From contig WFMF01000133.1 of assembly GCA_011033025.1 (NCBI GenBank), positions 359,356 through 423,355 of the forward strand: a DNA stretch of 64,000 nucleotides, given 5' to 3'. Under the pieces are notes generated by a model. The model ran no database searches. It was not told where the DNA came from and worked only from the letters and a program-made list of their open reading frames with translations. This DNA is from Beroe forskalii (Eukaryota > Ctenophora > Nuda > Beroida > Beroidae). Positions 3,920-46,981 of the stretch are shown here, piece by piece (the stretch's first letter is position 1; every line of letters starts with the position of its first letter). A program made the translations under genes and the position numbers.

Positions 3920-4108
3920 TCACATGGTTGAACCCCAGTTCATAGTAACGAATTCCTCGGCAGCAGTGGGGTGAATGGCGACCGTACTGTCGAACTGCTT
4001 CTTAGTAGCTCCAGCGACTACTGCCACAGCAAAGCCTTGCAACATCTCATCAGCAGCCAGCCCTATCACGTGCAGTCCCACAATCCGCTCCTCTGGCAGC
4101 AAACACAC
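3920..4108 (-). CDS. GSR: Glutathione reductase, last exon (C-terminus)
   Basis: This exon encodes the C-terminal 62 residues of the dimerisation domain. It shows [11 protein letters not shown] and the IHPTAAEEF segment, which holds the catalytic His-Glu pair of the glutathione reductase family. The minus-strand acceptor is CTCCTCCAG|GTGTGTTTG and the TGA stop is at 3920-3922. The protein ends a few residues after the conserved EEF-VT segment, as in glutathione reductases. There is no Gly-Cys-Sec-Gly tail, so thioredoxin reductase is excluded. Glutathione reductase reduces GSSG to GSH with NADPH. The phase-0 junction with the exon at 9591-9712 is seamless (...[13 protein letters not shown]...). 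Confidence 0.93.
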
Positions 4109-4113
4109 CTGGA

Positions 4114-4735
4114 GGAGGGCGTGTGAAGGAGGGTGTGTTGAGTGGGGAGTGAGTGGGTGGGGGAGATGAGTGGGAAGTGTGTTGAGTGGGGAGTGAGTGG
4201 GTGGGGGAGATGAGTGGGAAGTGTGTTGAGTGGGGAGTGAGTGGGTGGGGGAGATGAGTGGGAAGTGTGTTGAGTGGGGGAGTGAGTGGGTGGGGAGATC
4301 AGTGGGAAGTGTGTTGAGTGGGGAGTGAGTGGGTGGGGGAGATGAGTGGGTGGGGGAGATGAGTGGTGGGGGAGATGAGTGGGTGGGGGGAGATGAGTGG
4401 GTAGGTGTGTTGAGTGGGGAGTGAGTGGGTGGGGGAGATGGGTGGGAGGGGGATTTGGGTGCGAAGTGAGTGGGTGAGAAGAGTGGAAAGTGGGTGGGTA
4501 GGGAGTGAGTGGGTGGGGGAGATGAGTGGGTGGGGGAGATGAGTGGGGATTGAGTGTGGGGGATATGGGTGGGGAGTGAGTTGATGGGGAGATGGGTGGG
4601 TGGGAGTGAGTGGGTGGTGGGGGATATGACTGGGGAGTGAGTTTTTGGTGGGTGTTTAGTGGGGAGTGGGTGGGGGGAGAGATTGGTTGGAGGAGATGAG
4701 TGTGGAGTTGGTGGCGACTGAGTGAGTGGGCACTT
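4114..4735. repeat. G-rich minisatellite (GGGGAGTGAGTGGGTGGG)
   Basis: About 600 bp of variable direct repeats built from GAGTGAGTGGGTGGGGGAGA and GTGTTGAGTGGG. On the minus strand, the coding strand of the host gene, it is a continuous C/T-rich tract that ends at the 3' splice site of the last glutathione reductase exon. The plus strand could form G-quadruplexes. The 273-codon minus-strand ORF across it is repeat artefact fused to the real exon. Confidence 0.95.
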
Positions 4736-4739
4736 AGGC

Positions 4740-44240: not shown

Positions 44241-44246
44241 TGATGA

Positions 44247-44456
44247 ACACGGATTGACCTACACTCGAATCTGGTCGGGGTTTCAGACTATCAAGTTGAA
44301 ACATGTGTGATGCTGTATATCTAGGGTCTGTCAGAAGGACCCAGCCGAATCCTCTGTCCCATGAGTTAGATATACAGTAACAGCGTTGGCTACGTAAAAT
44401 GAATCACCTTGATAGTCTGAAGGCCCCGACCAGATTCTAGTGTAGGTAAATCGTGT
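44247..44456. mobile_element. MITE with ~55-bp terminal inverted repeats
   Basis: ACACGGATTGACCTACACTC ... GACTATCAAG on the left matches CTTGATAGTC ... GAGTGTAGGT-type sequence on the right, with a ~100-bp interior. The interior has its own small pair (GATATACAG/CTGTATATC). No ORF. Confidence 0.88.
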
Positions 44457-45453
44457 CTATCAATAGCCCCAGTAGTGTACTATTTAATCGAGTAGAAATA
44501 TAGGTGTAGCAGTTACGAAGACAGTTCCTAGCCTGGATCAATGTGAACAAATCCATTGTCACAATCCATCTTTCTAACCGATGAACTCTATGTTCCACTC
44601 TGCTCTTTCATAACTTTTTCCCCTCCCCAGTGCCTTTTTTTCTTACAAAAAGGCATCGGAAGATGAGAAATAGCATTATATATGTGCACATCCGGTAAAT
44701 GGATGTGGCATTAATTCGTCATTGAAGTGGCATTAATTCGTCATTGAAGTGGCGTTAATTCGCCATAAAAGTGGTGTAAATTCGTCATAAAAGTGGTGTA
44801 AATTCGTCATGCTGTCGTTTCTCCTAGCAACTCTTACATTTGTGTGCGCACGCGCGCGCGTTCAAACGCTTGCGCAGGTGTTAGATTGCTGGTGTAAGTT
44901 TTTGCTCGGCGCTGTTGGAGTTTAACACGCCGTGTACGAATTACGATTTCAGTTGAAATAATTATGTAGAGCGTCCAAGAGTTGTTTATTGAATATCGAA
45001 GCCAAAAATGATAAACATTAAAAAGTTTTACACTAAAAATATTTTCCCTTAATGAACTATTCTGTATCAGCGGAGGACACAGCGTTTGCGACTAAGATCT
45101 GTTAGCCCCTTCAAAAGTTCAAACACTCAATGCACGTGTTACGATTCAAACCGCTGATACCTGAGACGATACAAACAGTGAAACAGCTAACGATAATCAA
45201 GAACCACCCAGGACGCCCACAAAACAACAACAGAGGACTGAGAGTGCTTCGCAATAAGAATTACAGGTTGTTATAAGTTGGATATGAGAATAGTAAGTGA
45301 TTTAATTTGGTAGCTTTCAAACACATCATGATTGCACTCGTCTAGAATAGGTTGTTTTGTCCTTCACATTAAGTGAATGAATCAACACTTGACACTAGTT
45401 CTGCAAAGTTATTTTACCATAGCACTGTAACCCCTATAACCATAGGTACTCAC
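44457..45453. other. Intronic stretch with a 22-bp tandem repeat
   Basis: At 44700-44817 there are five units of AAGTGG-GTTAATTCGTCATA. At 44846-44862 there is a CGCACGCGCGCGCG tract. The rest shows nothing recognisable. Confidence 0.6.
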
Positions 45454-46981
45454 TTCACACCGGCATGTTCCAGGTCAAGGCTCCGTGTGTTGGGCTTTCG
45501 TCCAATAGCAAACAGCACTTTGTCGAGACCCTCTAACGAGACCTACCAGAAAACATGATCGTTTGACAGTCTGTGCCCTTTACATACGGCTTTGGAATTG
45601 ATAGGAATTTAACGTTTGATAAATAAATGCTAAGATTGTGAGTTCAATAAATTACGAACGGAAACTGGCATCAAGTGAAAAGAATTGCAATCATTTCTCA
45701 TGTGCCACAAAAAGCAGAAAACGGCGAACCTGTTTTAAGATAAATTGAAATTCACCTTTTCGGGTTCTTTCCCGGGTTCCGTAACATTGCCTGTAAATGT
45801 GAGGAGCCCATCCTCACCTCGGGTTATAGACTCGGGGGTAGTATGGTATTGCACCTGAAGTTTAGCTTTAAAGATTTGAAGCTTGAAAGCCCATAGCTTT
45901 TAAAAGCTTAAAAGCTCAAAGATTATTAAGCTTTAATAGTTCAAAGCTAGAGCTTAACGCTTGAAAGCTTTTAAGCTCTTTTAGAAGACATAGCTTTAAT
46001 AAAGCTCTTTAATAACTGAATGACTTTCTAATTTGACATGAAATCAGTTAGAAATAGGGGTTCATCCCTGAAACTTTTTCAATCACAATTTTGAATTATG
46101 AGTGGGCCATGGAAACATACCAAGCGGTTTTGAGTTCATACTTTCATAGGTACAACATTGCGAAGAGAGACCTCGGAGCAAAATTGGGGCTTAGCTTTTT
46201 ATTCACTTTTTTCAGCTTTTTTAGTTTGTTTATGAAATCGAATGAAATTGATTAACCCAAAAATATTGACCCAAACCATGGGCAAGTTTGAAGCTCATCT
46301 CTAAAATTGATCATAACGGCTACCTTTGGTACCAAAATAGGCGCTAAGGCACGTGCTTAGCATGGTCATAAACAGCCATTTTTCATCCAATTTTGACAAA
46401 ACGAATACACTAATGGCCAAATATCAGGGGTGAACCCCCAAGATAATTCTGTTGCAAACCTTCTGTCCAGCATTTGCCATTTCCATCATTAGGTTTTTGT
46501 AGATATCTGCATCGAATGTCCGGAGAATGGCCCCTTTACGGGCCACAAGAGTGGTGTCCACGCCAAGTCCGTGCAGTATCCCTGGGTTGACATTGAATTG
46601 TTGAGGCGATGGAGTGTCATATTTACGAAAGCATTTTATTCATTGGTCATAATATAAATGGGGTGATGCTATCAGATCGCATTTTTTCAAAATTTGTTCG
46701 TCGTGCCGATTTTCACAGCTTTGCTATGAGCTTAATAAATCTTCATTATCCCCAAGTCTCGTACCAGCTAGCTCGACAGCGATGTACCCGGCCCCGACCA
46801 CCACCACCTTGCGAGGCATGCTCTCCCACTCGAAGAAGGTATCGCTGGTATCGCCCCACTCGGCAGCTCCCGGTATGTCCGGTATGCTGGGCTCGCCTCC
46901 CACTGCTATCAGCACGTGCTCCCCCTCGTACTCTTCCCCTTCTACCGATACCGTCCGCTCCCCAACAAACCTTGCGTTGCC
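45454..46981 (-). CDS. GSR: Glutathione reductase, four exons (NADPH-binding domain)
   Basis: Exons on the minus strand: 46765-46981, 46460-46581, 45756-45854, 45454-45542. The first carries ILIAVGG-like HVLIAVGGEPSIPDIPGA and the NADPH-binding GAGYIAVELAG. The second gives ILHGLGVDTTLVARKGAILR. The third is 33 codons (VQYHTTPESITRGEDGLLTF...). The fourth is VSLEGLDKVLFAIGRKPNTR. All junctions are in phase (GCT G|GG; AAG|GTG; AAG|GTC) and align end to end with the family without a missing block. The redox-active CVNVGC exon and the N-terminal FAD exon were not found; they would lie at higher coordinates or outside the window. The donor at 45454 (GAA|GTGAGT, phase 2) matches only the acceptor at 10228. 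Confidence 0.93.
45860..46025. repeat. AAGCTT-rich simple repeat
   Basis: Dense AAGCTTTTAAAAGCTT-type sequence on both strands, in the intron between two glutathione reductase exons. Partly self-complementary. Confidence 0.8.

Follow-up and report, generated by a model that had tools for sequence, protein, structure and literature searches.

Exons and product of the glutathione reductase gene

The window analysed here is a stretch of 64,000 nucleotides of Beroe forskalii DNA that makes up positions 359356-423355 of scaffold C174 and reaches its right end at 423355; C174, C402, C363 and the other C-numbers denote scaffolds of the 216-Mb assembly that was searched. Seven exons of a glutathione reductase (GR) gene, GSR, were located on the minus strand within 3920-46981. 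The first exon in the window is exon 3 of the gene (46765-46981) and the last is exon 9 (3920-4108), which carries the stop codon. Inspection of splice sites and phases placed the others at 46460-46581 (exon 4), 45756-45854 (exon 5), 45454-45542 (exon 6, with donor GTGAGT), 10005-10228 (exon 7), and 9591-9712 (exon 8). An AG acceptor precedes each of the seven exons; a GT donor follows exons 3-8, and exon 9 closes with the stop. The six intervening introns are of the GT-AG type, phases agree at all six junctions, and the joined frame encodes 353 residues with no internal stop. Intron 6 (10229-45453) is 35,225 bp long, contains no Ns, and is a phase-2 intron; at junction 45454/10228, one base supplied by the acceptor exon completes the codon. 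The initial annotation had proposed seven minus-strand exons in GR order with every junction in phase, including this one, and re-inspection bore out both points.

In a search against solved structures (PDB), the seven-exon product matched GRs best, with E 8.3e-117 for 5vdn and ~5e-113 for human GR entries, ahead of thioredoxin reductases and TGR. The C-terminal end is NWGSTM followed by the stop, with no Cys/Sec extension. The FAD-binding N terminus of GR was looked for within the window and was not found there. A human GSR query against the assembly gave 13 matches at a threshold of E 0.001. Scaffold C174 carries five of them (single matches for exons 3, 7, and 8 and a pair for exon 9) and C402 carries two; the remaining six are weaker, at 40-47% identity, and fall in related enzymes on C290, C327, and C387. 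The two C402 matches are exon 1 (C402:110245-110406) and exon 2 (C402:110587-110769). Each comprises a whole number of codons, and exon 2 therefore joins exon 3 of the window in phase (phase 0). The seven window exons are thus only part of the gene; this ctenophore GSR has nine coding exons, two of them on another scaffold.

Pfam analysis of the joined nine-exon protein revealed Pyr_redox_2 (E 1.1e-60) and Pyr_redox_dim (E 1.1e-35) spanning its whole length. GR typically has a redox-active CxxxxC motif close to the FAD site and an HPT motif towards the C terminus; here the former is GGTCVNVGC, encoded by exon 1 on C402, and the latter is AIHPTAAEE, encoded by exon 9. The product was 54.3% identical to human GSR over 462 aligned positions, a likeness that extends over the whole length and includes the FAD, redox-disulphide, NADPH, and dimerisation regions. 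Judged from their sequence, the window exons and C402 exons together evidently encode glutathione reductase, with enzyme activity predicted.

The genome search provides a copy count for exons 1, 2, 3, 7, 8, and 9, exons 4-6 being too short for the threshold. No second copy of exons 1, 2, 3, 7, or 8 was present in the assembly above the E 0.001 threshold, just weaker relatives; the second copy of exon 9 lies at C174:355983-356162. Among the relatives, C290:231374 and C327:229177 are equal-scoring places of a related disulphide-oxidoreductase gene, of which perhaps both alleles were kept.

Probable allelic overlaps at the two ends of the locus

Beginning 520 bp past exon 2, C402:111289-112466 matched the window in reverse orientation from 59064 to 57876, with 98% identity over 985 positions and then 87% over 212; the ungapped mismatch rate was 1.64%. 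A 100-N gap on C402 (112469-112568) follows directly after the overlap, and C402:112569-121000, beyond the gap, showed short repeat matches only to the window region. We read the C402 stretch, on this sequence match, as a second allele of window 57876-59064. Exons 1 and 2 would thereby be placed beside the right end of C174, and intron 2 is then estimated at 12.6 kb. Window positions 59065-64000 had no match in the fetched C402:108760-111288; thus, either the window allele is longer there or the contig end is wrong. A 15-bp tandem array is present at 59557-59736, and 10-bp satellite-like arrays are present at 61804-62572.

Intron 2 so defined contains the 3′ part of an amiloride-sensitive sodium channel (ASC) gene at 57587-58698 on the plus strand, antisense to GSR. 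Its Pfam matches (E 1.3e-5 and 5.6e-16) lie in two overlapping frames, which cover positions 162-284 and 296-455 of the 455-position profile. This gene was absent from the guest list of the initial annotation.

The only Ns in the window are the 100 of a scaffold gap at 2350-2449, close to the last exon. Sequence to the left of the gap, from -6277 to 2349, is arranged in blocks colinear with 2810-8292 (88-98% identity) and separated by insertions of 0.7-1.1 kb, and the order of exon 9, GPCR-like ORF, and intron is repeated in this left copy. The left copy reaches the gap itself, and the right copy starts 360 bp beyond it. Ungapped mismatch rates in three left/right blocks were 1.66-2.52%, resembling the rate in the C402 overlap. 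The second exon 9 and the second GPCR-like ORF are most simply explained as the second allele, placed in tandem across the gap, which would create a false second last exon and a false second GPCR. A true tandem duplication of exon 9 and the ORF is less likely than an allelic overlap in view of the colinearity, the positions of the two copies relative to the gap, and the mismatch rates. Because of this probable tandem allele and the location of host exons 1 and 2 on another scaffold, an apparent gene nest in a heterozygous assembly can be partly a scaffolding effect.

The GSR halves on the two sides of intron 6 complement each other in the right order and phase, and among the exons that the genome search could detect, exon 9 alone had a second copy; it is therefore very likely that both halves belong to one gene. 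That they are remnants of two genes or loci brought together by misassembly is extremely unlikely: the scaffold has at least one artificial join, but the halves lie on one strand in the right order and phase, and exons 1, 2, 3, 7, and 8 have no second copy above the E 0.001 threshold. A single GR gene split by an intron of ~35 kb is the best reading.

The GPCR-like ORF itself (6062-7195, plus strand, 378 aa) is intact and antisense to its host. It lies whole between exons 8 and 9, and is thus a complete coding unit in a single host intron, intron 8. In the second allele left of the gap it is broken into three frame pieces. A genome search gave 37 matches: the ORF itself, the three allele pieces, and 33 weaker ones. 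The Pfam 7tm profile did not match the ORF, and a PDB search gave nothing below E 0.5; two of six relatives tested matched 7tm_1 weakly, below the cut-off. Five separate hydrophobic regions, not seven, exceeded the threshold, and single-sequence structure prediction was poor (pLDDT 46.8). The presence of a GPCR gene in the last intron, as first annotated, was thus upheld as regards an intact ORF in intron 8, with the same order in the second copy; the GPCR label is only probable, with the rhodopsin class as a candidate assignment.

Genes and repeats in intron 6

A PAN/Sushi-type membrane-protein gene was located at 14761-16196 on the minus strand, i.e., the sense strand of the host, with a PAN_1 profile match (E 1.9e-5). 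Five relatives were fetched for comparison, and the fifth, which has two stops, was omitted. All four remaining relatives, each a single ORF, required two frames of the window gene. The frame change was near 15,675 with three of them and between 15,789 and 15,672 with the fourth. A third frame piece (16039-16116) was seen with one relative only and is doubtful, as the main frame stays open over that stretch. The frame change may mean that the gene is degenerate, that a short intron was overlooked, or that a sequencing indel went uncorrected. The gene is inside the intron as the initial annotation had it, but not as one open frame. A genome search with its 307-residue second part, in which 129 of 142 candidates were scored, gave at least 129 matches, self included; among the matches listed, many cover just a Sushi-like stretch of ~80 residues and lie in single long ORFs. 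These matches point to a large family of PAN/Sushi-type membrane proteins in this genome.

Two long repeat copies flank the middle of the intron: R (16276-21640), with a weak reverse-transcriptase match inside, and R′ (34762-41526). Both are ~5-7 kb long, with sharp starts in differing flanks and right ends in differing tandem arrays. The RVT_1 match in the repeat piece was below the cut-off. With 40 of 82 candidates scored, a search with 17200-18600 gave two full matches, R and R′, and at least 38 partial ones; the partial matches listed were all within query positions 607-1145, and 17200-17805 was matched nowhere except in R and R′ among the same 40 scored candidates. By contrast, 18650-20300 gave at least 64 matches (40 of 75 candidates scored). 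The best of those listed outside the intron were 95-97% identical, on C406, C204, and C913. The segment 18650-20250 is thus dispersed in the genome; the longest dispersed copies end near 20250, and R/R′ homology continues past ~20250. A purely locus-specific duplication was rejected, since the 3′ half has near-full copies on those three scaffolds. R and R′ may have arisen by two insertions or by a single local duplication. The earlier description of two retroelement copies of ~5-7 kb fits at least the 3′ part.

Several other features of the intron and window were recorded. Arms of ~650 bp, 83% alike, form an inverted repeat around 2.6 kb at 22003-25873, which may be a foldback or terminal-inverted-repeat element. 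A 303-aa open frame at 42878-43789 on the plus strand, between 44-bp minisatellite blocks and originally called ORF1, showed a sub-threshold Pfam match; all three so-called ORF1 units were scanned, and none matched a Pfam family above the cut-off. Rfam at gathering scores and ARAGORN detected nothing in the window.

Between R and R′, on the plus strand, four exons of UBXN4 were found at 28334-28439, 28877-29025, 29211-29410, and 29906-30035. They are separated by GT-AG introns, are in phase, end in a stop, and encode the UBX domain, a hydrophobic segment, and the tail; joined, they matched the UBX profile with E 3.4e-7. No further copy of these 3′ exons was found in a genome search at E up to 1. 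The 5′ exons of UBXN4 were found only on another scaffold, at C363:194532-195629, and none was recognised in C174:319356-423355. A search for 5′ or coiled-coil exons near 21-28 kb recognised none, and a repeat shared by C363 and window 27.3-28.1 kb was rejected as a link between the two because its relative orientation is wrong. UBXN4 is accordingly not a complete coding unit in this intron; its annotation inside the 35-kb intron stands for the four 3′ exons, but the 5′ exons are on C363 only.

The location of these four exons exactly between R and R′, and their incompleteness as a gene, make 21.6-34.8 kb the weakest part of the assembly here. GSR may be one gene of which this stretch of intron 6, with the UBXN4 3′ exons, has been misplaced or mis-joined at the repeats; the true intron length would then differ, and the intron may not hold UBXN4 as drawn. 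Several observations point in this direction. Among 11 UBX-domain places in the genome, none is on C363 (the window's own UBX exon was below that cut-off), and the ungapped sequence C363:179032-194531 gave no UBXN4 match below E 2.9, at which the coiled-coil part could be missed. The stretch is bounded by repeats whose 3′ part has close copies on other scaffolds, mismatch rates between R and R′ are 1.41% and 2.42% in two aligned parts (equal to the 1.6-2.5% of the allelic overlaps), and haplotype-type scaffold errors occur nearby. However, the interval is without Ns, the flanks of R and R′ differ sharply, and the exclusive matching of 17200-17805 to R and R′ suggests that the two copies belong together. 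We consider a mis-join rather unlikely on balance, although it is the most serious of the alternatives. Two stretches of the interval 10-45 kb were tested for the other haplotype (14.8-15.7 kb and 28.2-30.1 kb), and neither revealed it. At C704:9455-9661 and C704:23675-23881, two equal-scoring UBX-domain places lie in opposite orientation 14 kb apart, either as a palindromic duplication or as an assembly artefact.

A different arrangement would have GSR and UBXN4 truly interleaved, with the UBXN4 3′ exons in GSR intron 6 and the 5′ exons beyond GSR. Two housekeeping transcripts from opposite strands would then each have to be spliced across the other. The in-phase 3′ exons, found nowhere else, and the 5′ exons on another scaffold would fit such an arrangement; however, no UBXN4 5′ exon was recognised in C174:319356-423355, and repeats apart, the fetched part of C363 showed no overlap with that region. 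We regard interleaving as very improbable.

Layout of the gene and comparison with known nested genes

The layout we favour, and consider fairly probable, is a GSR gene of nine exons and at least ~56 kb, with exons 1 and 2 on C402, exons 3-9 in the window, and long, repeat-rich, gene-bearing introns 2, 6, and 8. That intron 6 is ~35 kb long with the content described above is, taken separately, likely to a similar degree; its exact length and content we infer, and the figure of 35,225 bp applies to the assembled sequence and may differ on the chromosome. The guests would be the ASC gene, antisense in intron 2; in intron 6, the PAN/Sushi gene together with part of UBXN4; and the GPCR-like ORF, antisense in intron 8. 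The initial claim that at least three other genes lie inside GSR thus survived in part: the GPCR-like ORF is intact, but the PAN/Sushi gene is frame-changed and UBXN4 is incomplete. Presumably, ordinary cis-splicing would remove the 35-kb intron from the host transcript, and each guest would be transcribed independently from a promoter of its own. The introns may have grown by insertion.

Human NF1 and F8 are hosts whose long introns carry independent genes. GSR resembles them in having a large gene-bearing intron; the hosts and guests differ, and no common descent is implied.

A closer comparison is provided by the ctenophore Hormiphora californensis. The passages on nested genes in PMC8527503 give 2357 nested intronic genes in 1654 hosts, accounting for 12.24% of exonic bases; 1109 of the nested genes have a transposable element next to them on one or both sides, and the Figure 4A legend describes a host with four nested genes. 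Genes nested in introns are common in ctenophores, and the earlier suggestion that a housekeeping enzyme with at least three guests is unusual was not supported (PMC8527503). The likeness extends to guests that lie in single host introns on one strand or the other, often with transposable elements beside them, and to several guests per host. The Hormiphora genes described there were annotated with Iso-Seq transcripts, whereas the GSR nest is known from genomic sequence alone and has one incomplete guest. By analogy, the GSR nest appears to be a further case of a nested-gene architecture already known in ctenophores, to which it would add one host with several guests.

The mitochondrial contig of the assembly was also inspected. 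The passages on B. forskalii mitogenomes in PMC6991124 give lengths of 13,357, 13,339, and 13,338 bp, a GC content of 17.3%, and an absence of conserved tRNAs. Two pieces of the contig, 1-2844 and 1300-6000 (20% and 15% GC, respectively), were scanned with ARAGORN under the bacterial code, and neither yielded a tRNA. The contig is 13,339 bp long, and its cox1 frame, translated with table 4, has four internal TGA codons and looks strongly divergent.
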